A stretch of 32,295 nt of DNA from a virus. The notes under the pieces are model-generated. The model was not told where the DNA came from. It made no database searches and worked only from the letters and a program-made list of their open reading frames with translations. Position numbers and translations under genes: made by a program. Positions 5,290 to 29,866 of this stretch are shown here, piece after piece. The stretch is from positions 1 to 32,295 of IMG/VR virus record IMGVR_UViG_3300030390_001841; one strand, written 5' to 3'. Positions within the stretch are counted from its first letter, which is position 1; every line of letters starts with the position of its first letter.

Positions 5290-6060
5290 ATGCTAACATT
5301 TAAGAGTTATATATCTGAAAGTAAAGCAGCTGATCAATATGAAAAAAACGTTGCTGATTATATGACTAGTTTAGGTATTCCAGCATCTAGGCCAAAGGTC
5401 AGTGCTAAATATGCAGATATTGCTATTGATACTCAATACCGCGGAAAAAAACGAGTATGGTTAGAAGTAAAAATGAATCACACAGATAATCTTGGTAATG
5501 AGAGAGTTTTCTATAATGGCAAAAAGTGGGATGGTGGTAGAGATAAAAAAAGCGGTAAACTTTCACCTTTAAAAACCTACATTGTTAATTTTTTAAATAA
5601 ATCTGATGAGGCTAAATCCTTTATATCAGATCTAGAGAAATTTTCAGGAATCAAAGATTGCAAGGTGCCGACTACAAAGGGTGGATTAAAGGATCCAAAA
5701 GCAGTTCCACTTGATGTAATGAAAGATTTCTTCAAAACACGTAATCGTTATATAATGAATAAAAGTAATGTAGATTTAGGTAAAATTGTAAGAAAACATT
5801 ATTTAGAAGGTAAAGCAGAATCTGCATATTATTTACAAGCTGGCGATGATTTCTATATATTCGATAAAAAACAAAATCCATGTAATGTTCCAAACGACGT
5901 TCCAGTATTTAAAGGAACAGGTGAATTTAAAATGAGAGTTGGTACACGATCTCAATTTTATGAAGTACAACCTGAAGTAAAGGTTAAAAATATGGCAGAT
6001 AGTAAATATTCTGTTAAGCCAGGAACTAGTAAAAAAAATCCTTTCGAATCTATGAAATAA
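5290..6060 (+). CDS. Leader-bearing PD-(D/E)XK-like nuclease, 256 aa
   Basis: The N-terminus MLTFKSYISES matches the pattern of the T4 capsid-targeting sequence (MKTYQEFIAE): M-x-[TS]-[FY]-x-x-[YF]-[IL]-x-E. This suggests a protein loaded into the prohead, with the tag cut after Glu-10 by a gp21-type protease. Behind the leader, residues 36-61 read KVSAKYADIAIDTQYR... RVWLEVKM. Asp-43 and the E59-V-K61 triplet on successive strands fit the PD-(D/E)XK nuclease core. The C-terminal half (FYIFDKKQNP ... FEVQPEVKVK) looks beta-rich. AGGAAA precedes the ATG. The nuclease call is from motif spacing only. If correct, the enzyme could cut host or competitor DNA after ejection, or act in packaging. 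Confidence 0.6.
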   Translation: MLTFKSYISESKAADQYEKNVADYMTSLGIPASRPKVSAKYADIAIDTQYRGKKRVWLEVKMNHTDNLGNERVFYNGKKWDGGRDKKSGKLSPLKTYIVNFLNKSDEAKSFISDLEKFSGIKDCKVPTTKGGLKDPKAVPLDVMKDFFKTRNRYIMNKSNVDLGKIVRKHYLEGKAESAYYLQAGDDFYIFDKKQNPCNVPNDVPVFKGTGEFKMRVGTRSQFYEVQPEVKVKNMADSKYSVKPGTSKKNPFESMK

Positions 6061-6071
6061 TAGGAAATACA

Positions 6072-6845
6072 ATGCTTAATTTTAAATCACATATAAACCA
6101 GCCTCTTAATGAAAGTGCTTTAACAGCTCTTCGTGTTGCAACAAAAGCTCATAAAGGTCAGTTTAGAAAAAGTGGTGGAGAATATATTGCTCATCCAAAA
6201 GAAGTTGCTCGATTCGTAAAACAATTTAAAAAGTCTAATAATCTAACAGCTATGATTCAAGCTGCATATTTACACGATACTCTTGAAGATACTGATACGA
6301 CTTATCAGGATTTAGTTAAACAGTTTGGTGCTCTTGTAGCTGATATGGTTCAAGAATTAACTACTGATAAAGCAGCATCTGATGCAATCGGTAAAGGTGA
6401 ATATATTGCAAACAAAATGGCTAAGATGTCGAGTTGGGCATTGGTTGTAAAGTTAGCAGATAGACTAGCAAACGTTCAAGATATCGATACTCGACCAGCA
6501 GACTTTCAAAAGAAATATGCAGCTCAGACTGTATTAGCTATTAATAGATTAAGAAAAGATCGTTATTTGAGCCAGACTCATAACAAAATTATTTCAGCAA
6601 TTGAAAAGAAAATTAAAGAATACATTCCGAAAAATGTTAAAGAAGATACTACTGAATTACATAAAAAATATCAAAATCACATTGATGCTGAAGAAAAACT
6701 CAGTGATCATAATTATGGTCCTAACAAAGCTAGAGCAACACGGACTGCTAATACATTAAGTAAAGCAATCAATAAACATCTTGGTCCTAATGCAACTATG
6801 CAAGATAAAATTAACCTTAGAACCCGATTACAGAACGAAAAATAG
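6072..6845 (+). CDS. Leader-bearing MESH1/SpoT-type HD hydrolase, 257 aa
   Basis: Residues 1-14 (MLNFKSHINQPLNE) are a CTS-like leader. From residue 15 the protein aligns with the HD hydrolase domain of SpoT and the stand-alone (p)ppGpp hydrolase MESH1: AHKGQFRKSGGEYIAHP with metal ligand His-41, AAYLHDTLEDTDTT with His-68/Asp-69 and the catalytic Glu-72/Asp-73 pair of HDxxED, FGALVADMVQELTTD, and VVKLADRLANVQD with metal ligand Asp-130. All four metal ligands are kept. The family hydrolyses the 3'-pyrophosphate of (p)ppGpp, though some relatives act on NADPH or related nucleotides. No synthetase domain follows. The C-terminal 80 residues are basic, helical and unrelated to SpoT. AGGAAA is 6 bases before the ATG. 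Confidence 0.85.
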   Translation: MLNFKSHINQPLNESALTALRVATKAHKGQFRKSGGEYIAHPKEVARFVKQFKKSNNLTAMIQAAYLHDTLEDTDTTYQDLVKQFGALVADMVQELTTDKAASDAIGKGEYIANKMAKMSSWALVVKLADRLANVQDIDTRPADFQKKYAAQTVLAINRLRKDRYLSQTHNKIISAIEKKIKEYIPKNVKEDTTELHKKYQNHIDAEEKLSDHNYGPNKARATRTANTLSKAINKHLGPNATMQDKINLRTRLQNEK

Positions 6846-6854
6846 GAAACTATT

Positions 6855-8081
6855 ATGCTTAGATTTGGAAATTATTTAACAGAACAAAAGAACACTCACA
6901 TGACCCATATTGAGGATCGTGTTCTTTATGGTGGTGTGAATGGAACTCGACAGGCAATATTCGCTTTAAGAGATTTAAGGGATATGTTAGGCGGTAAAAA
7001 AGACGGTAAAGTAAGTGTTAAATGGGATGGAGCTCCTGCCGTTTTTGCCGGTATTGATCCAAATGATGGAAAGTTTTTTGTAGCTAAAAAGGGTATTTTT
7101 AATAAAAACCCAATGGTGTATAAAACTGATGTTGAGATTGATGCTGATACTAAAGGTGATCTAAATGCTAAATTAAAAGAAGCTTTAAAGTATTTACCCA
7201 ACCTTGGAATTAAGGGCGTAATTCAAGGAGATTTTTTGTTTTCTAAATCTGACATTTATAATCAAACAATCAAGGGGCAAAAATACGTAATGTTCCATCC
7301 AAATACTATAGCATATGCCGTTCCTGCCGGCACTACAGCCGCAGCAGCAGTCAAAAGAGCTAAAATGGGCATTGTGTGGCATACTACATATACAGGCGAG
7401 TCTTTTGAGACGATGCGAGCTTCTTACGGAGTAGATGTTTCAAAATTGAGAAAAAGTCCCGATGTATGGTCACAAGATGCTATGCTAAGAGATTTGACAA
7501 GAGTTACTATGTCAGCTAAAGAAACCGAAGATGTAAATGAAAAATTATCTGAAATAGGATTTTTATTTAATCAAATTGGTGCATCTACATTAAAAACTCT
7601 TGAAGATAATAGAGATTTAGCTCAAACAATTGAGACATTTAATAATACATTTGTTCGTAAAGGTGAACAAGTAAAAGATACAGCTAAACATGTAAATGCA
7701 TTAATCAAATGGGTCAATGCCCGCTATCAAAAAGAAATTGATAAGCGTAAGACCGAAAAGGGTAAAAACGCCCAAATAATAAAACGCGATGAATTTTTAA
7801 AATTCTTTTCACCAAATAATAAACAAAATCTTAAAAAGATATTTGATCTTCAAAAGTTAATAATTGTTGTAAAATTAAAACTTATAAATATACTTAATAA
7901 GCTAAAGAGCATTGACACTTTCGTTAAGACGCCTAATGGATTTAAGGTTACTGGCGAAGAAGGATATGTTGCTATAGACAAATTAGGTGGTGATGCGGTA
8001 AAGATTGTTGACAGATTAGAATTCTCGTACAACAACTTTTCGCCAGATATTTTAAAAGGATGGGATAAACCAGGAAGATGA
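6855..8081 (+). CDS. Leader-bearing ligase-like nucleotidyltransferase, 408 aa
   Basis: A CTS-like leader (MLRFGNYLTEQK) precedes a covalent nucleotidyltransferase core. Motif I is KWDGA with the candidate adenylated Lys-56 and Asp-58/Gly-59. It is followed by a strand (AVFAGIDP), a motif III-like QGDFLFS (124-130), a middle region IVWHTTYTG, and near the C-terminus EEGYVAI (368-374; motif IV-like EG) and DAVKIVDR (380-387; motif V-like). The order and spacing resemble ATP-dependent RNA/DNA ligases and related phage proteins of unknown substrate. A long helical insert (about residues 230-330) separates the halves, so this is not a minimal ligase. There is no OB-fold that I can recognise. RNA or DNA ligation is the leading idea. 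Confidence 0.7.
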   Translation: MLRFGNYLTEQKNTHMTHIEDRVLYGGVNGTRQAIFALRDLRDMLGGKKDGKVSVKWDGAPAVFAGIDPNDGKFFVAKKGIFNKNPMVYKTDVEIDADTKGDLNAKLKEALKYLPNLGIKGVIQGDFLFSKSDIYNQTIKGQKYVMFHPNTIAYAVPAGTTAAAAVKRAKMGIVWHTTYTGESFETMRASYGVDVSKLRKSPDVWSQDAMLRDLTRVTMSAKETEDVNEKLSEIGFLFNQIGASTLKTLEDNRDLAQTIETFNNTFVRKGEQVKDTAKHVNALIKWVNARYQKEIDKRKTEKGKNAQIIKRDEFLKFFSPNNKQNLKKIFDLQKLIIVVKLKLINILNKLKSIDTFVKTPNGFKVTGEEGYVAIDKLGGDAVKIVDRLEFSYNNFSPDILKGWDKPGR

Positions 8082-8084
8082 AAA

Positions 8085-9863
8085 ATGGATAAAACATATA
8101 CAGAACTATTGCGCACACTTAATGAAAACTTTATTGCATTTGATTTAGAACACGAGGTTTTAACTCACTTTCAGACAAGGGCTGATGGAACGAAATGGAA
8201 AAATCATAAAAATGCGCCAGATTCTTACTATCTAGTAAAAACAAAACACCGGCTCCTTAAAGGTGACAGGGCATCTGAAGGATCTGATAGTTTGGCAAAA
8301 CATTTAGATAGTCAGCCATTTCCACACAAGGATGGACCACATTATTCTGTACATAAAGAATCTATTGACATAGGAAACGTGGCAAGAGGACTGGGTGTTA
8401 ATCCTGATGATGTGGCAAGAGGAATGGGTTTTAAAGAATCTGTTGATGAAACGTATCGAGGTTATAGCCAAGCAATTACTCAACCTCTGGCGCCACAAGA
8501 AGATCTTGACCGGTCTGAGGAAGTTAGAAACCATCACCTTGCTAAGCGGCATCATGAAAGACAGATGTCTAGAGATCCAGAAAATAAAAAATATCATCTA
8601 CAACAAGCATCTTTGCATTCTGCTGCCGAAGATGCCGGCGCTGAAGTCAGTCGTATTGCTCCTGGAAAGCTGCGAGATGCAGCAAATAGAGATTTTAAAG
8701 AAAAAAGTAAAAAAGCTCATGCTGGGACAGTTCAACACTTGGGTGCGTCTGTTAAAGTTAATGAAAAAGCACCAAAGATAGACGATGAAAAATATGAAAA
8801 GCATATGAATAGAAATAAGAAACCAGAAAAACCAATAAGTTCTACTAAAAAAGCATTATCAAATATTAGCAAACGGGCAGATAAAATGTCAAGAGAATCT
8901 GTTGAACTTGATGAAGATCATTGCTTGGTATGTAAAGATTGTGGTGACGAACTAAACAAACCAACAACTGATTGTAAAAATGATTGCAGTGATCCAAATG
9001 GTAGTCATTGGGTTAAAGAATACAATGAAGCAATGTCTTTCAAGGAGTACGCAGCACTTACTGAAAAAGAAGATGAAGTAAAAGATGGTGATGGTGTTAA
9101 TATTGTAAAAGATAGGGAATTTAAAGGCCCATCTATGAAGAAAGAGCCTGATAGCGGCAAAGGTATTACCTTTGCAAATATGAAAAAATCTAAGATAGCC
9201 AAAGAAGAAATGTCAGATGAAGTAAAAGCACGAGTCGCTTCATTACGTAATACTCCAAGTCAAATAGCGGCACGTAAAGCTGCAGCTAAAAATAAGATGG
9301 TGAGACCTGGAACTGAGGCTGATTTACCTAAAGATCATGATTGGAATGACAGAGATGCATATCCTAAGGAATCAACTGAAGTTGACGAATTAGCTCAAAT
9401 GGTTCCTAATAAATCTCAACTTAATAAAGATCAAGCTACAAAAATGAATAAACTTGACGACGAACTTAAAGCAATGAGAGCTCGTATGGCTGAAGAAACT
9501 CAAAATGAAGATTACGAATTGACTGAAGATGACTTACCAGAAGAATGGACTCCTATTATGCGTAGAGCTGCTGCAAGACGTATGAAAATCCTTGCTCCTC
9601 GTATTAAAATGGGTATTAAAAGATCTAAAAATAAAACAGCTACAAAAGAAAAATTGATGAGCCGTGCTGTTAAACAAGTTAAAGCAGCTCTAATTAAGAA
9701 ATTAACAAAGGGACAGGCTAAAACTGATTTGTCACCAGGACGTAGATTAGAAATGGAAAGACGAATTGCTAAGCTAGGACCGCGTATTAAACAGTTAGCA
9801 CAGAAAAAACTTCCGGGCGTTCGGAAAATGGAAGTCGACCGCCGAAGAAATAAGAATAAGTGA
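8085..9863 (+). CDS. Long internal-head-type protein with internal leader and basic tail, 592 aa
   Basis: The N-terminus MDKTYTELLRTLNE is CTS-like. The middle is low-complexity, His/Lys/Glu-rich and punctuated by ESVxxDE-type segments (KESVDET, RESVELDED, KESTEVDEL). Around residues 280-300 is a Cys cluster, CLVCKDCGDEL ... DCKNDC, which could bind zinc. A second CTS-like segment, MSFKEYAALTEKE, lies near residue 317, and the flanking sequence suggests that two leader proteins were fused. The C-terminal 110 residues are strongly basic and helical (EEWTPIMRRAAARRMKILAP onwards), suited to DNA contact. I recognise no enzyme domain. It is probably a processed head-interior protein, with several possible prohead protease sites. 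Confidence 0.6.
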   Translation: MDKTYTELLRTLNENFIAFDLEHEVLTHFQTRADGTKWKNHKNAPDSYYLVKTKHRLLKGDRASEGSDSLAKHLDSQPFPHKDGPHYSVHKESIDIGNVARGLGVNPDDVARGMGFKESVDETYRGYSQAITQPLAPQEDLDRSEEVRNHHLAKRHHERQMSRDPENKKYHLQQASLHSAAEDAGAEVSRIAPGKLRDAANRDFKEKSKKAHAGTVQHLGASVKVNEKAPKIDDEKYEKHMNRNKKPEKPISSTKKALSNISKRADKMSRESVELDEDHCLVCKDCGDELNKPTTDCKNDCSDPNGSHWVKEYNEAMSFKEYAALTEKEDEVKDGDGVNIVKDREFKGPSMKKEPDSGKGITFANMKKSKIAKEEMSDEVKARVASLRNTPSQIAARKAAAKNKMVRPGTEADLPKDHDWNDRDAYPKESTEVDELAQMVPNKSQLNKDQATKMNKLDDELKAMRARMAEETQNEDYELTEDDLPEEWTPIMRRAAARRMKILAPRIKMGIKRSKNKTATKEKLMSRAVKQVKAALIKKLTKGQAKTDLSPGRRLEMERRIAKLGPRIKQLAQKKLPGVRKMEVDRRRNKNK

Positions 9864-9870
9864 GTTATTA

Positions 9871-11574
9871 ATGATGATTAATTCTTTTAAGCAGTATATT
9901 GTTGAAGAGGCAAAGACACTTTATTTTACATTTGGTAGAATGAATCCTCCAACTATTGGTCATGAAAAACTGCTAGAGGTGCTTTCTTCTAAGTCAGGTA
10001 ATAATCCATATCGAATTTATCTTTCTCAAACAAATGATAAAAAGAAAAACCCATTACTATATAATGATAAAGTTAAATATGCTCGGAAAATGATGCCTAA
10101 GCATGCTCGTTATATTATGTTAAACAAAGATGTTAAAACAGTATTTGATGCAGCTAATGCTATTTACAATGAAGGATTTGTAAATGTAGTAATGGTAGTT
10201 GGATCAGATAGAATCACTGAGTTCAAATCTTTATTAACAAAGTATAATGGTAAAACAGGACAACGGTATGGTTTCTATAACTTTAGAACAATTGATGTAA
10301 TATCAGCCGGTGAAAGAGATCCTGACTCAGAAGGCGTCGATGGTATGTCTGCATCTAAAATGAGAGCTGCAGCAGGCGATAATGATTTTAATCAATTCAC
10401 AAAAGGCCTTCCAAAGAATTTTAGTAATAAAGATTCAAAGGACTTATTTAATGGCGTAAGATCTGGCATGGGTTTGAAAGAAGAAACTGAATTCTATAAG
10501 CATGTGCAATTAGAATCTGTAGGTGATATTCGAGAAAAATATATTCAAGGCGAGATTTATAATCTTGGTGAACGTTTACGCATTAAAGATACCGATGAAT
10601 TAGCAGAAGTCACATTTCGTGGGCCTAATTATTTAATTCTTGAGAAAGAAGATGGATCTATTGTAAGAAAGTGGATCGAGGCAGTTGAATCACTTGATGA
10701 AGCAGTTAAAAAGGTTGCTACGCCAAAGTGGAAAAAATCTGGTCCTAATGGAGAAAAAGAAATTACATTCTCTACTGGACGCCGATTCCAAATTGAGAAA
10801 CAATATGATCAAGATGATCGCCATAAAGGTGAATGGAAAGTTATGGAATGGAATACCCGCTCACGTGATTGGGATTGGCATGAGACATATAGCCCACAAT
10901 GGCATGCGAAAGCAAAAGTAATTGAACTAGGTAAATATGATTCTAAAGGCAAAAAAGTTACTGAATCTATCGAGTCGGTTAACGAAGATCCTACTCAGTT
11001 AGCACACGATGCTGTTACTTCAGCAGAAATGCTGAAAGGTCTTGGTATTTTAGGGACAGGAGCTGTAATAAAATACGGCATCACAGACCCTCTTACTAAA
11101 GTAATACATAAAAAAATTACCAACACCGTAGATAAATTTAAAGCAGACCGTAAAAGAAAAAGACCAGTAATTACTAAACCAATTCCTCGTGACATGAAGA
11201 CAGAAGATAGTAAGCTAGATAATTATAATAAGACTGGATGGGGAACTAAAGAAAGCACTAAAAAATGGGTAGATGCTACTCCGGGTCAAGTTATGCCAGA
11301 CGTTAAACCAACTCCAAAGTCTAAAACTAAAACAAGAAAACATCCAGGTAGTGATGTATCAGACGCCGGTGGTATGGGTGAGGGTGCTATGAAACGGTCA
11401 GGTCCAGATATGGACGGTTACGCACCAGGAGGTAATAAAGCCACTATTAGTTATGATAAAATTGACAAGGGTTTAAAGACATACAGAAAAAAACCAGATG
11501 ATTTAGTTACTAAAATTAAAATTGCTCGAAAGGGTGCCAAGCTAATTTTAGGAGATAAACGAGATGGAAAATAG
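9871..11574 (+). CDS. Leader-bearing HxGH nucleotidylyltransferase fused to internal-head region, 567 aa
   Basis: MINSFKQYIVEEA forms a CTS-like leader. Residues 16-170 are a Rossmann-type nucleotidylyltransferase: FTFGRMNPPTIGHEKLL carries the TIGH form of the (H/T)xGH motif (28-31), VVMVVGSDR is the central strand, and GMSASKMR (158-165) matches the ISSTxxR-like second nucleotide motif. This layout is typical of NMN adenylyltransferase (NadR/NadM), CoaD and cytidylyltransferases; NAD synthesis is the most likely but not certain role. From about residue 200 the chain becomes a mosaic with ESV/ESL-type spacers (LESVGDI, VESLDEA, IESVNED), an SH3-like WKVMEWNTRSRDWDW stretch, a short hydrophobic helix, and a Lys/Pro/Gly-rich tail. 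ATG 9874 is an alternative start. It overlaps the next gene by 11 bases. Confidence 0.72.
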   Translation: MMINSFKQYIVEEAKTLYFTFGRMNPPTIGHEKLLEVLSSKSGNNPYRIYLSQTNDKKKNPLLYNDKVKYARKMMPKHARYIMLNKDVKTVFDAANAIYNEGFVNVVMVVGSDRITEFKSLLTKYNGKTGQRYGFYNFRTIDVISAGERDPDSEGVDGMSASKMRAAAGDNDFNQFTKGLPKNFSNKDSKDLFNGVRSGMGLKEETEFYKHVQLESVGDIREKYIQGEIYNLGERLRIKDTDELAEVTFRGPNYLILEKEDGSIVRKWIEAVESLDEAVKKVATPKWKKSGPNGEKEITFSTGRRFQIEKQYDQDDRHKGEWKVMEWNTRSRDWDWHETYSPQWHAKAKVIELGKYDSKGKKVTESIESVNEDPTQLAHDAVTSAEMLKGLGILGTGAVIKYGITDPLTKVIHKKITNTVDKFKADRKRKRPVITKPIPRDMKTEDSKLDNYNKTGWGTKESTKKWVDATPGQVMPDVKPTPKSKTKTRKHPGSDVSDAGGMGEGAMKRSGPDMDGYAPGGNKATISYDKIDKGLKTYRKKPDDLVTKIKIARKGAKLILGDKRDGK

Positions 11575-13729
11575 TCCAAAGCCAAATGCGCCGTTAGCAC
11601 CTAAAACCTCAGAAATTGCTGCTCAGCCTTCCCCTGGTAATCCGGAAGTAGAAGCTCGTAAAAGAGCTGTACAGCAAGAAAAAGAAAAAAGATTACGCGA
11701 ACGTGAACAGCGTAAGCGGCAAAGAGAACAAGAGAAAAAACAACGGGCTCAAGCAAGAGAAAATGCAAAAGCTATGAGACAAGATCGGCGGGCGGCATCT
11801 CAACAAAGAGGCATCGATCGTTCTGCTGGAGCTGAACAAAAAAGAGCGGAGAGAAGTATGGCTGTAACCACTAGAGACGCTATACGAAGAAATAAATCTA
11901 AAACTGCTGCTGGGAAACAATTCTTTGGCAATAGATCTTCTTCTAATTTAGCTGTTAACTCATCAACGGAAATTAACTGTACTGATGATATGGTTGGTTT
12001 AAATGAGGATATGTATTTTAAAGTAAAAATTGAAGGCTTGCCTACGATGTATGTCAATTCCGCAAACCGTGAAGAATTAAGAAAAGATCTAGTTGGGCTT
12101 CTTCGAAATCCATCAAAAGCTGTTGGCAATATTAAAAGAGTTACGCCGGCCGAAGTTAAGAAAAGATTGCGGCTGCGATCACAGGGTAAAGAAGAGGAAG
12201 AAGAGATGGATGAATCTTATATAAAGTTTGATCACCCTAAAGTGGAAAAAATCAGTAAAGGTTTTGAGGGTCGTAAAGAAGCTGAGCGTCATAATGATCA
12301 CCTAGTGGGAAAGAAAAAAGCGTCAGGCAAAAGCTATGTTCTCAAACATAAAGACAATAAATTTTATGTTGTTGACATAAAAGAATCTGTAGAAATGAAT
12401 GAAGCTAGCAAAATTAGACCAAGCTTCTCAAGAGCGTATATTAGTAGAAAAAGAAAAGAACATGCGGAATTAAAGCGGCAACATGATCAAAATATTAGAA
12501 ATGAACTTGGTGTCAAGGAACAGGCTAACGAAAATTATTTAGACGAAGACATTCGTTCTATGTTAATTAACGAGGGTTATTCTGAAGAAGATATTCAATA
12601 TATTATTGACGAAGGTCTATGGGATAACATTAAAACTGGCGTCAAATCTGCAGCAGATAAAATTAAGAAAACTACTTCAAATATTCGTAGAAAAGTAATG
12701 AATCCTAACAAAGATAGTTTATTATCAAAAGCAAGAACTAAATTAGGTCTTAATGCAAAACCAAAACCAGTTGTAGCAAAACCAAAACCAGTTGTAGCAA
12801 AACCAAAACCTGCTACGACTGTGGTATCTTCAAAACCAGCGCCACGAAAACCCACATATCACAATAATAATAGAAAAGATAAAATTGCTAAAGGATCTAA
12901 TACTGGTGGAGTAGTTAACCGGAGTAGCAAAAATAAATCTGCTCATGTACCTCTTTCTACTGTAAATAAGCCAAAGCCTGCTGCTCCGGCACCAGTCGCT
13001 ACTAATAAACCAACTGCTACTTCTAATATAAGCCCCGCCGCTTTATCAATTGCTAAAAAATATGCTAAAACTGAAGATGTTATGACTTCTACTTCAGCTG
13101 ATAGTCAAGTTAAATTAAATCCAGAAACTGGAAAGTATGAAAAGAAAAGAATGAAACGTGGACAAATTAATGCTCAAACTGCAACTGAAGGCGTAATGTC
13201 AAAACTAAAAAATCATTATATGAATGAATCTAAAGCATATTATGCTCCTGATGCAGATGGTAAGAAGATGTCAAAATCTACAAAAGAGAAACGCGCTGCA
13301 CACTTTGCAAAAGGTTCTTATAAGCCAGCTCCTGGAGATGCTACGGCCAAGACAAAGCCGTCAAAGCATACTAAAAATGCTGATGAAATGGGCATGGGCC
13401 CAACTGATGAGGCCTGCTGGGATAGCCATAAGCAAGTTGGAATGAAGAAAAAAGGTAAGAAAATGGTTCCTAATTGTGTTCCAAAAAATGAATCATACAA
13501 TATAAATGAAAATAAAAAAGGTTTAGAAAATAAAGCTGAAAAGTCTGGTATGCCACTTGGTGTTTTAAAGCAAGTATATAACCGTGGTATGGCTGCTTGG
13601 AAAACTGGTCACAGACCAGGAACGACTCCAGAACAATGGGGTATGGCTCGTGTAAATTCATTTATTACTAAGTCTTCTGGTACTTGGGGTAAAGCCGATA
13701 AAGATTTGGCTGCAAAAGTCAAAAAATAA
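11564..13729 (+). CDS. Long basic modular virion protein (polyprotein-like), 721 aa
   Basis: Residues 1-105 are an extremely basic coiled-coil (EARKRAVQQEKEKRLRERE and following). A small alpha/beta module follows (YFKVKIEGLPTMYVN), then acidic spacers (MDESYIKFD, KESVEMNEA, NENYLDEDI). A UBA-like helix pair is at IRSMLINEGYSEEDIQYIIDEG. A triple KPKPVVA repeat, Pro/Ala-rich linkers and a CWDSHKQVGMKKKGKKMVPN module follow. The last 65 residues (LENKAEKSGMPLGVLKQVYN ... AWKTGHRPGTTPEQWGMARV ... TWGKADKDLA) form a module I recall from virion proteins of marine T4-like phages (probably DUF5824). There is no CTS-like N-terminus. Overall it looks like a beads-on-a-string internal or core protein that may be cut during head maturation. 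Confidence 0.6.
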   Translation: MENSPKPNAPLAPKTSEIAAQPSPGNPEVEARKRAVQQEKEKRLREREQRKRQREQEKKQRAQARENAKAMRQDRRAASQQRGIDRSAGAEQKRAERSMAVTTRDAIRRNKSKTAAGKQFFGNRSSSNLAVNSSTEINCTDDMVGLNEDMYFKVKIEGLPTMYVNSANREELRKDLVGLLRNPSKAVGNIKRVTPAEVKKRLRLRSQGKEEEEEMDESYIKFDHPKVEKISKGFEGRKEAERHNDHLVGKKKASGKSYVLKHKDNKFYVVDIKESVEMNEASKIRPSFSRAYISRKRKEHAELKRQHDQNIRNELGVKEQANENYLDEDIRSMLINEGYSEEDIQYIIDEGLWDNIKTGVKSAADKIKKTTSNIRRKVMNPNKDSLLSKARTKLGLNAKPKPVVAKPKPVVAKPKPATTVVSSKPAPRKPTYHNNNRKDKIAKGSNTGGVVNRSSKNKSAHVPLSTVNKPKPAAPAPVATNKPTATSNISPAALSIAKKYAKTEDVMTSTSADSQVKLNPETGKYEKKRMKRGQINAQTATEGVMSKLKNHYMNESKAYYAPDADGKKMSKSTKEKRAAHFAKGSYKPAPGDATAKTKPSKHTKNADEMGMGPTDEACWDSHKQVGMKKKGKKMVPNCVPKNESYNINENKKGLENKAEKSGMPLGVLKQVYNRGMAAWKTGHRPGTTPEQWGMARVNSFITKSSGTWGKADKDLAAKVKK
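12755..12814 (+). repeat. 21-bp in-frame tandem repeat encoding AKPKPVV
   Basis: The 21-base unit beginning GCAAAACCAAAACC is present twice perfectly (12755-12775, 12776-12796) and then partially from 12797. It encodes a Lys/Pro linker in the 721-aa protein. Units are contiguous with no spacers. Confidence 0.9.
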
Positions 13730-13798
13730 AACATAAGGAAAATTAAAATGTTTGCAAACGATGATAACGAAAAAAATATTCAAACTTACGCCGCTCTT
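13729..13798 (+). repeat. 70-bp leader cassette, copy 1
   Basis: This stretch is identical over 70 bases to 15024-15093. It covers the ribosome site (ATAAGGAAAATTAAA), the ATG, and the first 16-17 codons of two His-rich proteins. Similarity continues beyond, with a 9-base length difference. Confidence 0.9.
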
Positions 13799-14299
13799 TT
13801 GCAGGACATAAGAGAAGGTAAAGAAGGTATCGATGAAGCTACTTCTATCCACCTCCAGGAGGCAAAGAATGCAAAGAATTCTGTCCACGCGAGGGCGATG
13901 ATCCACCATGGTATCATCAGCGATATAAACGGCCGTTACGATGGGCATGAAGATGAAAATCGCGAAGGAAGTCATCTTCATAAAACTAGTAGTGAATTAG
14001 AACAATTAGCACACAATCATAAGAAACTGTCTGACATACATCATGCTCATGCAACTCTTCACTACATTGCTGGAAATCACGAAGCGGCTTCGGATCATGA
14101 GGAGATAGCGAACCAACATCGTAACGCTGCGCATGTTTCAAATCATCATCACATGCGCAATACGCCGGTCGCAAATCGTGAAACCCATGAAGGGTTTAGC
14201 CATTTTTCTGATCATATCAATGCTGACAGCGAAGATGCTTTAGAAGAACATCCAATTACGACTAAAATGTTAACTAAAATTCCAGCAGTTAAAAGATAA
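13748..14299 (+). CDS. His-rich internal-head-type protein, 183 aa (paralogue A)
   Basis: The N-terminus MFANDDNEKNIQTYAALLQD continues IREGKEGIDEA. It holds a CTS-like core (QTYAALLQDIRE) ten residues in. The rest is helical and extraordinarily His-rich (about 24 of 183 residues), with HHAHATLHYIAGNHEAASDH and a HHHM run. There is no enzyme motif. It is a paralogue of the protein at 15043: the leader is nearly identical, the central His helix is alike, and both end (E/K)HP[IL]T[TS]KM. The leader also recurs at 19502. The His-rich helix could bind metal, DNA phosphates at low pH, or simply pack in the head. It immediately precedes the ART-like gene. Confidence 0.65.
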   Translation: MFANDDNEKNIQTYAALLQDIREGKEGIDEATSIHLQEAKNAKNSVHARAMIHHGIISDINGRYDGHEDENREGSHLHKTSSELEQLAHNHKKLSDIHHAHATLHYIAGNHEAASDHEEIANQHRNAAHVSNHHHMRNTPVANRETHEGFSHFSDHINADSEDALEEHPITTKMLTKIPAVKR

Positions 14300-14304
14300 G
14301 GAAA

Positions 14305-15024
14305 ATGAAATCATTTAGAAAATTCATAACTGAAGAAAAACATGGCAAACTTAATGTTAAGCCTGAGCAAAAAGTTATGAATTACCTTAAAAAATATAAT
14401 ATTCCTGATGATACTGGTGTGGCTAATTATGGAATAGATTTTGGTCCAAATGGTGGCAAGGTACAGTCGACTGATAGTTATGTTAAAATTCCTATAGCTA
14501 GAAAAACTCAACGGGAGGCAATTCCAGAAAAAAATCATCCTTCAGTTGATAAATTATTAGCTGATATTGAGAAGGGTGCTTTTAAACATCCTCGTTTAAT
14601 TAGCTATAATGTTGGAGATACTTATCGAGAAGGTAAAACTGCTCTTGTTATATATTTTGCTAATAGAGTGGCAGTTGGAAAACCAGATGCACTTTATCAC
14701 TGGACAAAGACTGCCAATGTTGATAGTATATTAAAAAATGGATTAAAACCTTCTTCAGGAGATTGGGTAATTAGTGGTTCAAAGGTTGCATATGTTGCAA
14801 CGTTCCTTACTGAAAAACCAAAGCGTTTAGCTAGAGTTCGAGGATTTACGCATTTTAAAGAGCCGACATGGACATTATTAAAAGTAGATCCTGGTAATTC
14901 TAAACTTTACGTTGATGAACATAGATTTGATCCTGATCCAATTAACTGGATGGTGTATGATGTTATTTCAAAAGATAATATAGAAGTAGTAAAAGATATT
15001 AAAGCAAATAGGCAAATAAAATGA
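14305..15024 (+). CDS. Leader-bearing ADP-ribosyltransferase/KptA-like protein, 239 aa
   Basis: MKSFRKFITEEKHG matches the capsid-targeting pattern closely. The C-terminal 110 residues contain LYHWTKTANVDSILKNGLKP (about residues 131-150). This is the H-x-T strand, helix and GLKP turn found in RNA 2'-phosphotransferase (KptA/Tpt1), DarT and other ART-fold enzymes that use NAD+. Downstream, KVAYVATFLTE and a late VYDVISKDNIEVV fit the remaining strands. A catalytic Glu cannot be assigned with confidence. T4 carries ADP-ribosyltransferase Alt in the capsid by the same kind of leader, so a packaged ART is plausible. An alternative is tRNA-repair 2'-phosphotransferase. The first 120 residues are unassigned. 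The gene is sandwiched between two duplicated His-rich genes. Confidence 0.6.
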   Translation: MKSFRKFITEEKHGKLNVKPEQKVMNYLKKYNIPDDTGVANYGIDFGPNGGKVQSTDSYVKIPIARKTQREAIPEKNHPSVDKLLADIEKGAFKHPRLISYNVGDTYREGKTALVIYFANRVAVGKPDALYHWTKTANVDSILKNGLKPSSGDWVISGSKVAYVATFLTEKPKRLARVRGFTHFKEPTWTLLKVDPGNSKLYVDEHRFDPDPINWMVYDVISKDNIEVVKDIKANRQIK

Positions 15025-15093
15025 AACATAAGGAAAATTAAAATGTTTGCAAACGATGATAACGAAAAAAATATTCAAACTTATGCTACTCTT
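15024..15093 (+). repeat. 70-bp leader cassette, copy 2
   Basis: It is identical to 13729-13798, with offset 1295 bases. It includes the ribosome site and the first codons of the second His-rich paralogue. Confidence 0.9.
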
Positions 15094-15546
15094 TTGCAAG
15101 ACATAAGAGAAGGTATCGATGAAGCTACTCACATGGGAAAGAAGCCAAAGAATCTTGTGCATGCTGCTGCATTAGATCATTCTAATATAATTAAAAACGT
15201 AACTGACGGTTATGAAGATGATCCATATAAAACTTATGATGCAAGTCATTTGAAGGATAAATCTCGTCATGAAGTGGATCAATTAAATCGAAGTCATACA
15301 AAGTTAGTCGACATACATCGTGCGCATGCAACTATTCACTCGGCGCATGGAAATCACGAGGCAGTTGTTGCACATACAAAAGCTGCTAAACTGCATAAGC
15401 ATTGTGCAGATGTTTCAGATTGGGATTACGGCATGCCAACGAGCCATGAAGAGTTTTCAGATGCAGCATCCACTGCATCTCATAGAGGATCCGAAGCGTT
15501 AAAAAATCACCCGCTTACTTCTAAAATGTTTAGCAGCAAAAAATGA
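15043..15546 (+). CDS. His-rich internal-head-type protein, 167 aa (paralogue B)
   Basis: The leader MFANDDNEKNIQTYATLLQD continues IREGIDEATH and is the same as paralogue A apart from loss of KEG. The middle (VDIHRAHATIHSAHGNHEAV) aligns with the His helix of A, and the end (LKNHPLTSKMF) matches too. So this is a diverged tandem duplicate with one gene, the ART-like gene, caught between the copies. Conservation is strongest in the leader and much weaker in the body, suggesting that the leader function is selected. The stop overlaps the next start (ATGA). Confidence 0.65.
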   Translation: MFANDDNEKNIQTYATLLQDIREGIDEATHMGKKPKNLVHAAALDHSNIIKNVTDGYEDDPYKTYDASHLKDKSRHEVDQLNRSHTKLVDIHRAHATIHSAHGNHEAVVAHTKAAKLHKHCADVSDWDYGMPTSHEEFSDAASTASHRGSEALKNHPLTSKMFSSKK

Positions 15547-15983
15547 AAACATTTAGAGAGCTATTAGAAAATAAAGAAAATGAATATAACAATGAGGGCG
15601 GCATGTCTAAAGGTCAACTTAAGACCATGATTGATGCCGCTCAAGAGTTACATGATATGCTAAGTGATAACGATAATATGCCCGAATGGGTTCAATCAAA
15701 AATTACAAAAGCCACCGATTATGTTGATACAGCTCGTGACTATATGAAGAATGAAATAAAAACAGAATCAGTTAATGAAAAAAAATCTGAAACTTGGGAA
15801 GCTGGTTATAAAAGACGTGTTGTAAAAACTACAAAGCCTGAACATAAAGAAAAAGGCCATAACTGGAGAATCAAAGGTAAGGAAAGACCTGGAATTTCTA
15901 TTAAACTATATGATAAAAAGCCTTCACAGGAACAATTTAATAAAGAAATGAAAAGAGTTGCTGGCCATGAGTTTGGAGGATAA
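15543..15983 (+). CDS. Leader-bearing small virion-type protein, 146 aa
   Basis: MKTFRELLENKENE is one of the closest matches here to the T4 leader. Residues 20-77 (MSKGQLKTMIDAAQELHDML ... WVQSKITKATDYVDTARDYM) form a helical hairpin module that I have seen repeatedly in head proteins of T4-like marine phages. A TESVNEKK spacer follows, then a basic C-terminal module (WEAGYKRRVVKTTKPEHKEK onward). It contains no catalytic motif. It overlaps the upstream paralogue by 4 bases and is followed 2 bases later by another leader gene. Confidence 0.6.
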   Translation: MKTFRELLENKENEYNNEGGMSKGQLKTMIDAAQELHDMLSDNDNMPEWVQSKITKATDYVDTARDYMKNEIKTESVNEKKSETWEAGYKRRVVKTTKPEHKEKGHNWRIKGKERPGISIKLYDKKPSQEQFNKEMKRVAGHEFGG

Positions 15984-15985
15984 CA

Positions 15986-16273
15986 ATGGATACTTTTAAA
16001 CAGTACATATCAGAACGTGGCAACGATTCTAAAGGGCACTATATCCCAACCGAAAAAGGTGCGGGGATGACTCAAAAGGGTGTAGACGCAGTTAACAGAA
16101 AGACCGGCGGCAATTTGAAAACTGCAGTGACCGGTAAAGTAAAAGCCGGAAGTAAAGATGCAAAAAGACGTAAATCATTCTGCGCTCGTATGAGCGGAAT
16201 GAAAGGCCCTATGAAAGACGAAAAGGGTAGACCAACAAGAAAAGCGATGTCGTTAAAGCGGTGGAAGTGTTAA
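15986..16273 (+). CDS. Leader-bearing basic Cys-containing protein, 95 aa
   Basis: MDTFKQYISERG is a CTS-like leader. The body carries GAGMTQKGVDAVNRKTGG, LKTAVTGKVKAGSKDAKRRK, SFCARMSGMKGPM and a final LKRWKC. This is a small basic domain seen in many T4-like and other phage genomes, usually as a protein of unknown function (I believe DUF6321). Two conserved Cys, one in SFCARM and one at the C-terminus, may bind metal or form a disulfide. Its high Lys/Arg content suits DNA binding inside the head. A GGAGG ribosome site precedes the ATG. Confidence 0.65.
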   Translation: MDTFKQYISERGNDSKGHYIPTEKGAGMTQKGVDAVNRKTGGNLKTAVTGKVKAGSKDAKRRKSFCARMSGMKGPMKDEKGRPTRKAMSLKRWKC

Positions 16274-16617: not shown

Positions 16618-16655
16618 GAACTATAATATCCAAGCTTGTATAAATGGAGACAAAA

Positions 16656-19502: not shown

Positions 19503-19789
19503 TGTTTGCAAATAACGATAACGAAAAAACTATTAAAACTTATGCGGCGCTTTTGCAGGGTATAAGAGAAGGTAAAACTCATATGGTCGATATTGATCAT
19601 ACAGGTGGACCGGATGATAATGCCAAGATGCATAATATTACTATTAAGAAAAGCCAAATGGACGATGGCACTCACACTGCTAATTCACACGACGCTACTG
19701 GATCGAAAAAAGATCTTCAAAAGTATTTAGCTAAACATTATGACGACGCGGCTACAGCAAAAGAGCTACATCCAGAAATTTATAAATAG
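19502..19789 (+). CDS. Third member of the MFAN-leader family, 95 aa
   Basis: MFANNDNEKTIKTYAALLQG followed by IREGKTH is clearly homologous to the leaders at 13748 and 15043. It is even closer to the CTS consensus (KTYAALLQGIRE). The remaining 65 residues are unrelated to those His-rich bodies: polar, with a TGSKKDLQKYLAKHYDDAAT helix that resembles small alpha/beta domains. It overlaps the giant protein by one base (TAATG). Its last codons (YK-stop) coincide with a late promoter, TATAAATAG. Confidence 0.6.
   Translation: MFANNDNEKTIKTYAALLQGIREGKTHMVDIDHTGGPDDNAKMHNITIKKSQMDDGTHTANSHDATGSKKDLQKYLAKHYDDAATAKELHPEIYK
19781..19788 (+). promoter_or_regulatory. T4-type late promoter TATAAATA inside the end of the upstream gene
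   Basis: A perfect match overlaps the Tyr-Lys-stop codons of the 19502 gene and lies 26 bases before ATG 19814. The distance is similar to that of the promoter at 5257. Confidence 0.65.
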
Positions 19790-20185: not shown

Positions 20186-20776
20186 ATGGGATTTATTAAA
20201 AAGGCTGGTGATTTAGTATATACCTTTAGGTTTTTGGCCTTACTGGTGACACCGTTCGAAAAAACAAAGGCCTTTGAGTTAGGTCTTATTGACAAAGATG
20301 GTAAGCGTACTCGGACTGATGGTGATTTGGATTACCCAGAACAAAGAGATGCGTATACACCATTTATTCGTTTAGTATTTAATATTAAAAGATTAATGGC
20401 CAAAGCGCCTGGAGGTCAATCTGTTGTTGCTCGATATGCTGCAGCGCTGTATCTCATTAAAGAAAATTTAGATCTGACTGATAAGTCAATAAAACAAATT
20501 ACTGAAAAATGTGGACTTGATCCACTTGATTTTTTGTCAGAACAAAGTGGTTGGTTTTTATTAGAAAGCGGTGCATTAGCTCCAGGATCATATAGAGTTA
20601 AAAATAATAAAATAGTAAATAGCACATTTGAAGAGGTTGTAAGACCAAGAGATTGGATTCGAGTTGGAAACGATTGTTATCCTGTAGGTGAAATGTTTGG
20701 ATTAAATGTATATGAAGCTACGCATGTAAATACTAGACAAAAAGTATATATCACTATAGGGGAAATAATGTCGTGA
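20186..20776 (+). CDS. Conserved-looking phage protein of unknown function, 196 aa
   Basis: The N-terminal half is helical (KAGDLVYTFRFLALLVTPFE onward). The C-terminal half (from about residue 130) is beta-rich, with GWFLLESGALAPGSYRVKNN, DWIRVGNDCYPVGEMFGLNV and an ending that reads like a small beta-barrel domain. I recall similar proteins in T4-like marine phages next to the 122-aa protein, with no known role. The stop overlaps the next start (TGATG). There is no leader, so it is probably an assembly or virion component outside the cargo set. Confidence 0.6.
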   Translation: MGFIKKAGDLVYTFRFLALLVTPFEKTKAFELGLIDKDGKRTRTDGDLDYPEQRDAYTPFIRLVFNIKRLMAKAPGGQSVVARYAAALYLIKENLDLTDKSIKQITEKCGLDPLDFLSEQSGWFLLESGALAPGSYRVKNNKIVNSTFEEVVRPRDWIRVGNDCYPVGEMFGLNVYEATHVNTRQKVYITIGEIMS

Positions 20777-21576
20777 TGCGGCTGAAAAAATATATCAAAG
20801 AAATGGCGTCAGTGGCAGTTTCAGAGTTAGATGCTGAATTCTTAGCAAATGCTCAAAAATTAACATCGTTTAATTTAAAAGGATCTGATTTCACTTCTTT
20901 AAAATATAAAAAAGAAATTCAGCACTTGTTTCATATGAAATATTTTCCGACATTTAATATGGATAATACTATAAAGGGTCAACCAACTGTAGGTAAAGTT
21001 AATTCAGTTTTAAAACAACTGAAAAAGGCTGACGCAACTGCATTTGGAAAATTACATAAGTATGATATTAAAGGTGTTGGTCCTGGTGAAGCAATGTTAT
21101 TCTTTATTTTAGATGACGCTCATTTAGGTGGTGGTTCTTCTGCCGGCGTTGATTTAGTAGTTGATGGTAAAAATTATGAAATCAAAGCTGGCAATTTTAC
21201 TAAAGATGGATATATGGTTAACTATAAATTAGGTGCCACTATGGATATGACAAAAATAGTCGGTCCGGCCCTAGAACTTAAGAATATGGCTGATCCCAAA
21301 GGAGCCCTAGGTAGAGAAAAATCTGGCGTGAATGGAAAACAAATGACGGCTATTAAAAGAATACCAGCGCTTGCTGCTAGATGGAAAAAAGAAGTTGAAG
21401 ATCCTTATATTGATGCAGCTCATGCATATCTTTCCGCAAATCCAATTATCTTTATGGTCAACACATCGCCTAAGAATTTAATTGGAATGTGTAAAGCTAT
21501 TAAAGTACCTAAGAAGTCTGATATTGGATTAGATATGGTAACTCAAGGAATAATCAAACCAAAGGTAAAGGTATGA
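20776..21576 (+). CDS. Leader-bearing PD-(D/E)XK-like nuclease, 266 aa
   Basis: I chose ATG 20776 over the in-frame GTG 20773 because it overlaps the upstream stop. The N-terminus MRLKKYIKEMASVAVSE is a weaker CTS-like leader. The core shows GVGPGEAMLFFILDDA with Glu-105, then SAGVDLVVDGKNYEIKAG with Asp-126 and E135-I-K137. This is the classic E...D-x8-E-x-K layout of PD-(D/E)XK nucleases, and clearer than that of the protein at 5290. The remaining 120 residues (AALARWKKEVEDPYIDAA and after) are helical. It resembles restriction-type or resolvase-type nuclease cores, but no exact family is assigned. The target may be host DNA, competitor phage DNA or branched DNA. Confidence 0.65.
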   Translation: MRLKKYIKEMASVAVSELDAEFLANAQKLTSFNLKGSDFTSLKYKKEIQHLFHMKYFPTFNMDNTIKGQPTVGKVNSVLKQLKKADATAFGKLHKYDIKGVGPGEAMLFFILDDAHLGGGSSAGVDLVVDGKNYEIKAGNFTKDGYMVNYKLGATMDMTKIVGPALELKNMADPKGALGREKSGVNGKQMTAIKRIPALAARWKKEVEDPYIDAAHAYLSANPIIFMVNTSPKNLIGMCKAIKVPKKSDIGLDMVTQGIIKPKVKV

Positions 21577-24296: not shown

Positions 24297-24307
24297 AGGA
24301 TTATATA

Positions 24308-25951: not shown

Positions 25952-25961
25952 GGAAGACTAT

Positions 25962-26099: not shown

Positions 26100-26103
26100 T
26101 TTA

Positions 26104-26111
26104 TATAAATA
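26104..26111 (+). promoter_or_regulatory. T4-type late promoter TATAAATA
   Basis: A perfect match lies 27 bases before the TTG start at 26138, the same spacing as at 5257 and 19781. It would give late expression of the SegE-like and thermonuclease genes. Confidence 0.7.
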
Positions 26112-26137
26112 GTATTTTGTAATTAAGGAATACTATA

Positions 26138-27006: not shown

Positions 27007-27010
27007 AGGG

Positions 27011-27039
27011 TTTACAATTGATTAATAGTATGTTATAAT
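27011..27039 (+). promoter_or_regulatory. Sigma-70-type promoter for rnh
   Basis: TTTACA (27011-27016) and TATAAT (27034-27039) are 17 bp apart, with TG one base before the -10 (extended). This is close to consensus and lies 26 bases before the RNase H start. Confidence 0.8.
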
Positions 27040-27064
27040 ACTTACATAATGAAAGGAATCCCAG

Positions 27065-27916: not shown

Positions 27917-27918
27917 TA

Positions 27919-28326
27919 ATGATAAGTGATGTAATTAATGATGCCTCAAAGGCAAGATCAAAAAAACAAAAGATTGAAATATTACGGAAGAACGAAACAT
28001 GGGCTCTAAAAGATATTCTTAGAGGAACTTATGACGAAAATGTTAAATGGAATATTCCTAATGGCCGGCCGCCATATAAAGAAAATCAGGGATATAACGC
28101 ACCATCTAATTTACTTAAAAAGCATAAAGAATTTGTTACTTTTGTTCAAGGACAATCAGGTGATTCTATGCGAAAAATTAGAAGAGAACAACTTTTTATT
28201 ACTTTGATTGAGTCGGTTCCACCGCCAGAATCAGAGTTAGTTATCGACATGATTAATAAAATACCAATTAAAGGAGTTACTAAAGCAGTAGTAAAAGAAG
28301 CCTTTCCAAATTTGATACAGAAATAA
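27919..28326 (+). CDS. Conserved-looking small phage protein, 135 aa
   Basis: This soluble, basic, helical protein lies 2 bases after rnh. Blocks such as KQKIEILRKNETWALKDILR, YDENVKWNIPNGRPPYKENQ and FITLIESVPPPESELVIDMI occur in my recollection of T4-like marine phage proteins of unknown function (possibly DUF6433), typically near rnh or other replication genes. There is no catalytic motif. A replication-associated role is inferred from position only. Confidence 0.6.
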   Translation: MISDVINDASKARSKKQKIEILRKNETWALKDILRGTYDENVKWNIPNGRPPYKENQGYNAPSNLLKKHKEFVTFVQGQSGDSMRKIRREQLFITLIESVPPPESELVIDMINKIPIKGVTKAVVKEAFPNLIQK

Positions 28327-28365
28327 ATATATAATGATTGGAAAATATACTTATAATTAGATTTA

Positions 28366-28402
28366 TAGACAGGCCTTCTTCGGAAGAGTCTGTCTTTTTT
28401 TT
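28366..28402 (+). terminator. Rho-independent terminator with UUCG loop
   Basis: AGACAG ... CTTC-TTCG-GAAG ... CTGTCT followed by eight T. It is a long stem with a stable cUUCGg tetraloop and a slightly imperfect centre. It closes the rnh unit, and the next small ORF starts just after. Confidence 0.88.
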
Positions 28403-28414
28403 AGGAGAACTAAA

Positions 28415-28585
28415 ATGGTTTTACATAACAATCAAATAGCAAAATTACAAAAAGATTCTACTGAGCTTAAAGCTTACGTAGAGGAAATAAAACAAAAGGG
28501 TGACCATTCTTTAGCTAAGAAACTAGAATCAAAAAAAGTATATTTAGATCAGAAGATATATGAATTAGAGGACATGGTAGCATAA
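28415..28585 (+). CDS. Coiled-coil micro-protein, 56 aa
   Basis: TTAGGAG is 8 bases upstream of the ATG and overlaps the end of the terminator T-run. The peptide is a charged helix (LQKDSTELKAYVEEIKQKGD onwards) with a heptad-like Leu/Ile pattern and an acidic end (YELEDMVA). There is no membrane segment or leader. It is flanked by two terminators and so may depend on read-through. The function is unknown. Confidence 0.55.
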   Translation: MVLHNNQIAKLQKDSTELKAYVEEIKQKGDHSLAKKLESKKVYLDQKIYELEDMVA

Positions 28586-28607
28586 TTCCTTACAAGAAAT
28601 AGTATAG

Positions 28608-28639
28608 AAAAAGGAGCAATTAGTTTTGTTCCTTTTTTT
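28608..28639 (+). terminator. Rho-independent terminator
   Basis: AAAAAGGAGCAA (28608-28619) pairs with TTGTTCCTTTTT (28626-28637) with one G-T wobble and a short loop, running into a T tract. The late promoter TATAAATA starts 5 bases later. Confidence 0.82.
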
Positions 28640-28644
28640 ATTTG

Positions 28645-28652
28645 TATAAATA
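28645..28652 (+). promoter_or_regulatory. T4-type late promoter TATAAATA
   Basis: A perfect match sits directly after a terminator and 39 bases before the ATG at 28691. It repeats the terminator-then-late-promoter arrangement seen at 5221-5264. Confidence 0.78.
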
Positions 28653-28690
28653 TAGTAAAATGGTTTAGCAAATTATCGAATGGGGTAGAT

Positions 28691-29866
28691 ATGAAAACTT
28701 TTAAACAGATGAACGAAGATATTCAGCATCAGAAGCAGCTCAACGAAAAAGGTTTGCTTACGAGAATTGGCAATGCAAGACGGGCTGCAGTAGCGTCATT
28801 TAAAAGTGATCCTGAAAAACATGCGGAAAAAATGAAGAATATAGGTAATAGAGCCAAAGCCCAAGATGCTGAGGTTGCATCTGCAAAAGCAAAGCTTGGT
28901 AAAGATAAAGAAAAGGCCGCTCAACAATTATCAAAGTTAAAAGGTACTTCAACAGGTTATAATATTACCAAAAAAGGTAGTACTGATGATCCAAACTCAA
29001 TGCGACCTAAGGATAAAGACGGCAATCCTAAACACGGATCATTCTATAGTGCTGAAAAGAAAGATAAAGTAGATGCTGCTGGAAATACCAGAGAGCATAC
29101 TAGGCTGGCAATGACGCATGGTAGCGACTTAGCGGCGAGTCGAATCTCTGCTAGAGAAAATAGTCTTGATAAAGAAGACAAAGATCGCAGGAGTATTCAC
29201 GGTGATGGCCCGGCTTTTGAACGCGTGAAAACTATTGAAAAGCATGTAGGAAGACTTAAAGCACATGCCAAAGAAGCAAAAGAGAGAATAGCTCATGCTG
29301 AACATACTTTAAAACTCCATCATGATGCTCACAAAGCCGCCACCGCTCATCTAGAAACTCATAAAGAACATGAGTTTACATCTTCAAATTATAGCGATTA
29401 TCATGATCATCACTATGGTAGCGGAGAGCAAGATCACCATTATGAAGAAATGCAAAAGCATAAAGACGCTGAACAAAAGAATCCTGCTGAAACACATATA
29501 GATAATAAAAGACTAGGATATGATCATACACATTACGATCATCCACATTATGAAGAACCAAGAAAAGCTGATTATGCCGATGAGAAGCATGGTGCGACCA
29601 TGAAGGATCTGGGGAAAAAAGCTACCGCGGCTCATGAAGCTTATAATAAAATGGTTGATAGTCAGAAAAAAGCTGAAGATGGCCTTCCGAAAGGTGAAAA
29701 AAGTAAAACTAAATTTCATAAGAAAGCTGCTTATGAAAAAGTTGATGTTGCCACCCATGCAGCATATTATAAAAAAGCATTAAGAGTAAATCCAGAAAAT
29801 AACGAAATAGTTAAAAATTTAAAACATATCAATAAAGATCACAGGCAAAAAGAAATGGACATTTAA
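28691..29866 (+). CDS. Leader-bearing His-rich internal-head-type protein, 391 aa
   Basis: MKTFKQMNEDIQHQKQLNE has a CTS-like beginning (MKTF) with a slightly shifted Glu. The body is basic and helical, then becomes strikingly His/Tyr-rich (DYHDHHYGSGEQDHHYEEMQ, YDHTHYDHPHYEEP). There are several Lys/Ala-rich helices (HAKEAKERIAHAEHTLKLHH) and a basic C-terminus. No enzyme motif is visible. Its composition parallels the MFAN-leader proteins, so it is probably another head-interior protein, though without sequence homology that I can show. It lies between a late promoter and the adhesin gene. Confidence 0.6.
   Translation: MKTFKQMNEDIQHQKQLNEKGLLTRIGNARRAAVASFKSDPEKHAEKMKNIGNRAKAQDAEVASAKAKLGKDKEKAAQQLSKLKGTSTGYNITKKGSTDDPNSMRPKDKDGNPKHGSFYSAEKKDKVDAAGNTREHTRLAMTHGSDLAASRISARENSLDKEDKDRRSIHGDGPAFERVKTIEKHVGRLKAHAKEAKERIAHAEHTLKLHHDAHKAATAHLETHKEHEFTSSNYSDYHDHHYGSGEQDHHYEEMQKHKDAEQKNPAETHIDNKRLGYDHTHYDHPHYEEPRKADYADEKHGATMKDLGKKATAAHEAYNKMVDSQKKAEDGLPKGEKSKTKFHKKAAYEKVDVATHAAYYKKALRVNPENNEIVKNLKHINKDHRQKEMDI

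Follow-up and report, generated by a model that had tools for sequence, protein, structure and literature searches.

The internal proteins of T-even phages were discovered through a short N-terminal signal, the capsid-targeting sequence (CTS), and Ip1 to Ip3 inhibit the GmrSD restriction enzymes (PMC12373910). In the T4 IPIII leader, suppressor genetics assigns residues 4 and 7 to targeting and residues 8 and 10 to processing (PMC9026906). A leader of the same form is found in the IMG/VR virus fragment IMGVR_UViG_3300030390_001841 (32,295 bases with 46 called genes; this whole stretch is referred to below as the window), whose source is read as a marine T4-like, Kyanoviridae-like phage. The leader spans ten N-terminal residues with the consensus M-x-x-F-x-x-[YF]-[IL]-x-E and is common to otherwise unrelated proteins. 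The initial annotation had proposed a T4 CTS-like leader on many unlike cargos, and this central idea is strongly supported by the enrichment of the profile, the recovery of T4 IPI, IPII, and IPIII, at least 63 cargo clusters, and an excess of Ala at the predicted cleavage site. The best explanation, and in our judgment a highly probable one, is that the leader is a T4-type CTS, cut by the prohead protease gp21, which loads a diverse cohort of cargo proteins into the head.

The weight matrix was built from 20 leaders of a single family, the MESH1 homologues from viral contigs, and applied to the window and six further genomes or fragments, namely four related IMG/VR contigs (G001, 151 kb; G002, 183 kb; G011; and G012), phage C48C1, and the methylophage Melnitz. 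Chance level was set by 1,845 internal pseudo-starts. At a cutoff score of ≥10, the matrix recognizes 34 of 1,052 N termini, a few of which are MESH1 genes, i.e., members of the training family, and none of the 1,845 pseudo-starts, which bears out the enrichment in the window and its relatives. Seven of the 46 window genes pass this cutoff, those starting at 5290, 6072, 6855, 9874, 14305, 15986, and 20776, with 6072 belonging to the training family. Nine leader genes had been listed initially, and all nine starts are in place; besides the seven clear cases, 28691 (MKTFKQMNED, score 6.0) and 15543 (MKTFRELLEN, score <5) are weak when taken alone. The homologues of 15543 bear clear leaders (MKNFKSFLES). 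Leader genes are clustered along the genome in G002 (P = 0.00005), G012 (P = 0.00005), and C48C1 (P = 0.0009).

The leader is also widespread among other viruses. A single exact DNA pattern encoding M-K-[TSR]-F-K-x-[YF]-I-x-E, run on IMG/VR, matches at least 120 stretches, and its reversed control matches none. Cellular genomes (257 Gb) contain seven matches, at least three of which look like phage contigs in bins of metagenome-assembled genomes. In 117 of the 128 matches listed, the distance to the preceding stop is at most 25 codons. The sequences that follow the leader form at least 63 cargo clusters with no detectable mutual similarity; those recognized among the matches listed include adenylate kinase (E = 4e-39), glucosaminidase, a polyvalent-protein ADP-ribosyltransferase (ART-PolyVal; E = 2e-23), cytidylyltransferase, DPBB lytic transglycosylase, GP88, DUF6267, and MESH1. 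In the same listed matches, 63 of 72 leader 30-mers are distinct, synonymous codons differ, and codon use resembles that of the cargo, indicating that it is the protein, not the DNA, that is conserved. Across the cargo clusters from the matches listed, Ala directly follows E10 in 19 cases versus 4.9 expected (p = 2e-7). The T4 cleavage sites IAE|A and LTE|A likewise have Ala after Glu. Two other sources of the leader were rejected, chance on the basis of the pseudo-start, reversed-pattern, and cellular-DNA controls, and DNA-level conservation or gene duplication on the basis of the unrelated cargo clusters and the synonymous variation.

In 42 marine and cyanophage leaders, a set partly chosen by score, information content beyond Met1 is highest at positions 4, 10, 7, and 8; the cleaner result therefore comes from the DUF6267 proteins (n = 16), which were picked by their bodies. 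In these, M1 and E10 never vary and F4 is conserved at 94%, compared with just 31 to 44% for positions 2, 3, 5, and 6. Positions 4, 7, 8, and 10 are the targeting and processing positions of T4 (PMC9026906). Hydrophobic or aromatic residues are found at 4 and 7, and Ile or Leu at 8 is combined with Glu at 10, the exceptions being Q10 in 6072, N10 in 15543, and D10 in 28691. The leader behaves as a separate module. It is kept in MESH1 homologues while the linker behind it varies in length (MKSFKKYIAEDTLNES, MESFKQYISEETETLNES, VISFKQYISEDLSSNLNES), to be followed by a near-invariant NE[SN]AL and then the domain. Cytidylyltransferases and DUF6267 proteins contain the leader in some phages and lack it in others.

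Applied unchanged to 60 to 110 kb of the T4 genome, the MESH1-trained matrix places IPIII (13.7), IPII (13.7), and IPI (12.9) on top, with the next N terminus at 3.7. The initial annotation had ascribed MKTYQEFIAE to the T4 internal proteins and Alt alike; it is found in IPII and IPIII, whereas IPI starts with MKTFKEFTST and Alt with MELITELFDE. In the region from 1 to 50 kb, the highest score, 16.6, belongs to gp61.1 (MKTFKEFIKED) and exceeds those of IPI to IPIII. Because of this score and its location, gp61.1 is a candidate fourth internal protein, so that the leader also predicts an uncharacterized internal protein in T4, the best-studied phage. The protein consists of 54 residues (NC_000866, 18966 to 19130, minus strand), and its gene adjoins 61.2 (adfA) and lies near 61.4 (tifA) in an anti-toxin-antitoxin region.

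Both gp21 (PF03420) and gp23 (PF07068) are encoded in G001, G002, G012, C48C1, and Melnitz. Leader contigs of >100 kb among the matches listed contain gp23 in 8 of 8 cases and gp21 in 7 of 8, counts that come with no base rate from other large contigs. Read by analogy with T4, the gp23 propeptides would end in FLTE|T, FLSE|A, LSE|A, LTE|A, and LLQE|A; the leaders terminate in the same way. One short gene separates gp21 of G002 from the gene for a 559-residue leader protein (MKTFKNLIAE); in G001, C48C1, and G012, a short weak-leader gene is located between a gp67-like gene and gp21, and in G012 it adjoins an MFAN-type protein. The presence of gp21 and gp23, the form of the gp23 propeptide ends, and the proximity of leader genes to gp21 favor the CTS reading. 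Such proximity in several relatives also speaks for an alternative in which the leader docks on the prohead core but the cargos serve in assembly, as scaffold or core factors, and are lost at maturation by degradation or expulsion without being delivered. T4 gp22, gp67, and gp68 are core proteins cut by gp21, and some cohort members are of low complexity. However, the cargos include enzymes with no expected role in assembly (MESH1, adenylate kinase, SAM hydrolase, and ART-PolyVal), and leader enzymes are present in the mature virions of the cyanophages S-CREM2, S-SZBM1, and S-SCSM1, which makes this alternative improbable.

For S-CREM2, virion mass spectrometry (MS) has been published, with 52 proteins listed (PMC10665884). 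The strict leader M-x(1,3)-F-x-x-[YF]-[ILMFTV]-x-E is found in 4 of its 219 open reading frames (ORFs), which encode a SAM hydrolase (MKDFDSFLEE), an APH/ChoK kinase (VKRFDAFLTE), ORF136 (MQTFSMFFSE), and a cytidylyltransferase (MKNFSSFLTE). Each of their products belongs to the published virion proteome (P = 0.003, for a pattern chosen after the S-CREM2 N termini were known). The exact pattern of the initial annotation proved too narrow for cyanophages, with one match in S-CREM2. The virion cytidylyltransferase/NMNAT proteins of S-SZBM1 and S-SCSM1 bear the leaders MRFRQFIIEA and MKSFLQFLKEA, respectively. The virion lists lack the leaderless DUF6267 homologues, S-CREM2 gene 87 and S-SZBM1 gene 141. 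Packaging is thus backed by published virion MS of cyanophage relatives and remains a prediction for the window phage itself. In S-SCSM1, 7 of the 9 products of genes 89 to 97 (8357 to 15306 of the S-SCSM1 stretch) are annotated as virion proteins, and this block is located between primase/helicase and nrdA, the same position as the window cohort. The Cas9-like nuclease ORF12 of S-CREM2 (complement 7704 to 10313), reported in virions, has a leader-like LRFASFMAEA at residues 17 to 26 and not at its start.

Several observations weigh against loading into the head. Apart from the choice of the strict pattern after the fact, the matrix fixed a priori gives a weaker result on S-CREM2, with three of four proteins above score 3 in the virion list (P = 0.04) and two of two above score 5 (P = 0.06). 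The S-SZBM1 leader proteins encoded by genes 191 and 192 are missing from its 30-protein MS list, and one of its three leader proteins is detected. The virion evidence comes from cyanophage relatives, which are neither the window phage nor close to it. The window is without gp21, being too short a fragment to cover that region. T4 Alt escapes the profile, the window MESH1 protein has Gln at position 10 where most of its homologues have Glu, and the preferred Ala after E10 is rare among the window's own leaders. An origin unrelated to heads, with a common N terminus kept for translation initiation, as a DNA recombination site, or by single-gene descent, would fit the genomic clustering of leader genes, the shuffling of cassettes by T4-like phages, and the co-purification of highly expressed proteins raised as a possibility by the MS authors, but is very improbable in view of the at least 63 cargo clusters without detectable similarity, the distinct 30-mers (63 of 72) with cargo-like codon use, the match of the conserved positions to the proven CTS positions of T4, the unprompted recovery of IPI to IPIII, and the presence of gp23 in all 8 leader contigs of >100 kb among the matches listed.

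If the leader is a T4-type CTS, its hydrophobic residues 4 and 7 would dock the newly made protein on the prohead core late in infection. A gp21-type prohead protease would then cut after Glu10, freeing the mature protein within the head; a parallel cut, [LI]-[STQ]-E|A, is predicted in the major capsid protein of the relatives. The virion would then contain a MESH1-type alarmone or NADPH hydrolase, a nucleotidyltransferase, two nuclease-like proteins, DUF6267, DUF6321, and other proteins, which would most likely enter the next host together with the DNA.

In the window, the first promoter box, the leader genes, the DUF5824 gene, and the genes with the second kind of N terminus described below are all on the plus strand. 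The T4-type late promoter box TATAAATA (5257 to 5264) is found 25 nt upstream of the first cohort gene (5290 to 6060), which encodes a nuclease-like protein of the PD-(D/E)xK type, assigned by motif, with the leader MLTFKSYISE|S (matrix score 22.0). The second PD-(D/E)xK-like protein (20776 to 21576; MRLKKYIKE|M, 11.0) has homologues that start with MQRFKNFFTE|MA; D126, E135, and K137 are invariant in this family, and a Pfam search with it gave no match. For both proteins, the earlier nuclease-like label holds at the level of these motifs and goes no further. The MESH1-type HD hydrolase (6072 to 6845; MLNFKSHINQ-PLNE|S, 16.2) contains an HD_4 domain above the cutoff, with the HDxxED motif in the form HDTLEDT, and matches human MESH1 in PDB (E = 6e-16) from residue 17 on. 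The cytidylyltransferase/NMNAT-like domain protein (9874 to 11574; MINSFKQYIVEE|A, 19.1) matches a cytidylyltransferase PHROG (E = 1e-68) and has leader-bearing cyanophage homologues in virions. The last two proteins are what the initial annotation took them to be, and their identities, as well as that of the DUF6321 protein (15986 to 16273; MDTFKQYISE|R, 21.0), are secure at the level of sequence comparison.

The DUF6267 protein (6855 to 8081; MLRFGNYLTE|Q, 10.8) had been called ligase-like; KWDG is invariant in its homologues, but a medium-confidence model of it found no fold match in PDB (best E value, 0.25), and the label is unconfirmed beyond that motif. The ART-like label of 14305 to 15024 (MKSFRKFITE|E, 19.9) is not confirmed, as the match to KptA is below the cutoff (E = 0.02), the best PDB match has an E value of 0.59, and the model (pLDDT, 31) is unusable. 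The two weak leaders belong to a small protein (15543 to 15983) and a His-rich protein (28691 to 29866). A large protein with DUF5824 at its C terminus (11564 to 13729) has no leader and shows a short similarity to the virion protein S-SZBM1_139.

A second kind of N terminus, [KR]-x-Y-x-x-L-L, is found in three MFAN-type proteins, at 13748 to 14299 (QTYAALLQDIREG), 15043 to 15546 (QTYATLLQDIREG), and 19502 to 19789 (KTYAALLQGIREG), and in a large low-complexity protein at 8085 to 9863 (MDKTYTELLRTLNE|N), a candidate cohort member. The (K/Q)TYAALLQ noted earlier in the MFAN proteins is indeed a common N terminus, but of a different type, to which the profile is blind. Since an MFAN homologue in G012 (30294 to 30764) sits between the gp67-like gene and gp21, this N terminus may be a second head-targeting signal. 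ESVxxxDE-like sites are repeated in the large low-complexity proteins at 8085 to 9863, 11564 to 13729, and 16644 to 19502 (7 versus 0.41 expected by shuffling) and are possibly protease sites. As a general cleavage motif they were rejected and are not used as evidence, because their enrichment in the window is not clearly repeated in relatives.

Boxes of the TATAAATA type are found 25 to 26 nt upstream of 5290, 16644, 19814, and 26138 and 38 nt upstream of 28691; the late-promoter-like box GATAAATA lies 27 nt upstream of 19502. The box ahead of 5290 is in keeping with the CTS reading. In the relatives, late promoter boxes are not enriched immediately upstream of leader genes, which are mostly operon-internal. 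Upstream of the cohort, inspection by eye shows genes for phosphoribosyltransferase-like (315 to 689), IMP dehydrogenase/GMP reductase-type (996 to 2111), and class I fructose-bisphosphate aldolase-like (2696 to 3598) proteins.

The non-DNA content injected by ocean T4-like phages is mostly unknown, and for the enzymes detected in their virions contamination has remained a possible explanation. Because the leader matches the T4 head-loading signal, cargo becomes predictable from sequence; if the leader does act in loading, the genome of any such phage would reveal which proteins are injected. An alarmone hydrolase or NAD-related enzyme carried in the head would, if this is true, reset the starvation or defense signaling of the host before any phage transcription. 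It is rather likely, if far from certain, that the leader represents a general head-loading code of the T4 superfamily, in which one ten-residue leader readable from raw sequence marks an open-ended cargo and delivers metabolic and counter-defense enzymes at infection. The repertoire would then span alarmone hydrolase, adenylate kinase, SAM hydrolase, nucleotidyltransferases, nucleases, ART, and cell wall hydrolases among a total of at least 63 unrelated clusters. The loading signal itself is already known in T-even phages; what appears new is how far it extends in marine T4-like phages and the enzyme cargo it has there. In the open-access literature (subscription journals lay outside the search), no paper applies the CTS to marine T4-like phages or to cyanophage virion enzymes.

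Compared with known systems, the leader is closest to the CTS of T4 IPI, IPII, and IPIII, with which it shares some 10 N-terminal residues, aromatic residues at 4 and 7, Ile or Leu at 8, Glu at 10, attachment to unrelated proteins, and gp21 in the genome; one profile finds both (PMC9026906, PMC12373910). The T4 cargos are small inhibitors of restriction enzymes, whereas those of the window and its marine relatives include recognized enzymes, with seven to nine leader genes per phage and with cleavage and injection that are predicted. The T4 ADP-ribosyltransferase Alt is likewise a head-packaged enzyme, cut by gp21 and injected (PMC9026906), but its leader is of another form, which the profile misses. 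The virion enzymes of S-CREM2, S-SZBM1, and S-SCSM1 (cytidylyltransferase/NMNAT, kinase, and SAM hydrolase) carry the leader, and the cytidylyltransferase/NMNAT proteins are homologous to 9874; the available text of the respective papers mentions neither a leader nor a loading mechanism and leaves contamination open (PMC10665884, PMC9602691). The ejection proteins of the giant Salmonella phage SPN3US and other phiKZ-like phages similarly have propeptides that a prohead protease cuts before the proteins are injected (PMC5694885) but belong to another phage group and are set beside the leader by description only. Polyvalent proteins (Iyer et al. 2017, PMC5512222) are also predicted to be carried in the head and injected, and one leader cargo contains the ART-PolyVal domain. 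In contrast to those multidomain proteins, which are defined by their architecture and contain at least two effector domains per polypeptide, the leader cargos are short, single-cargo proteins, with at most one recognized domain each in the window, and are united by their leader.

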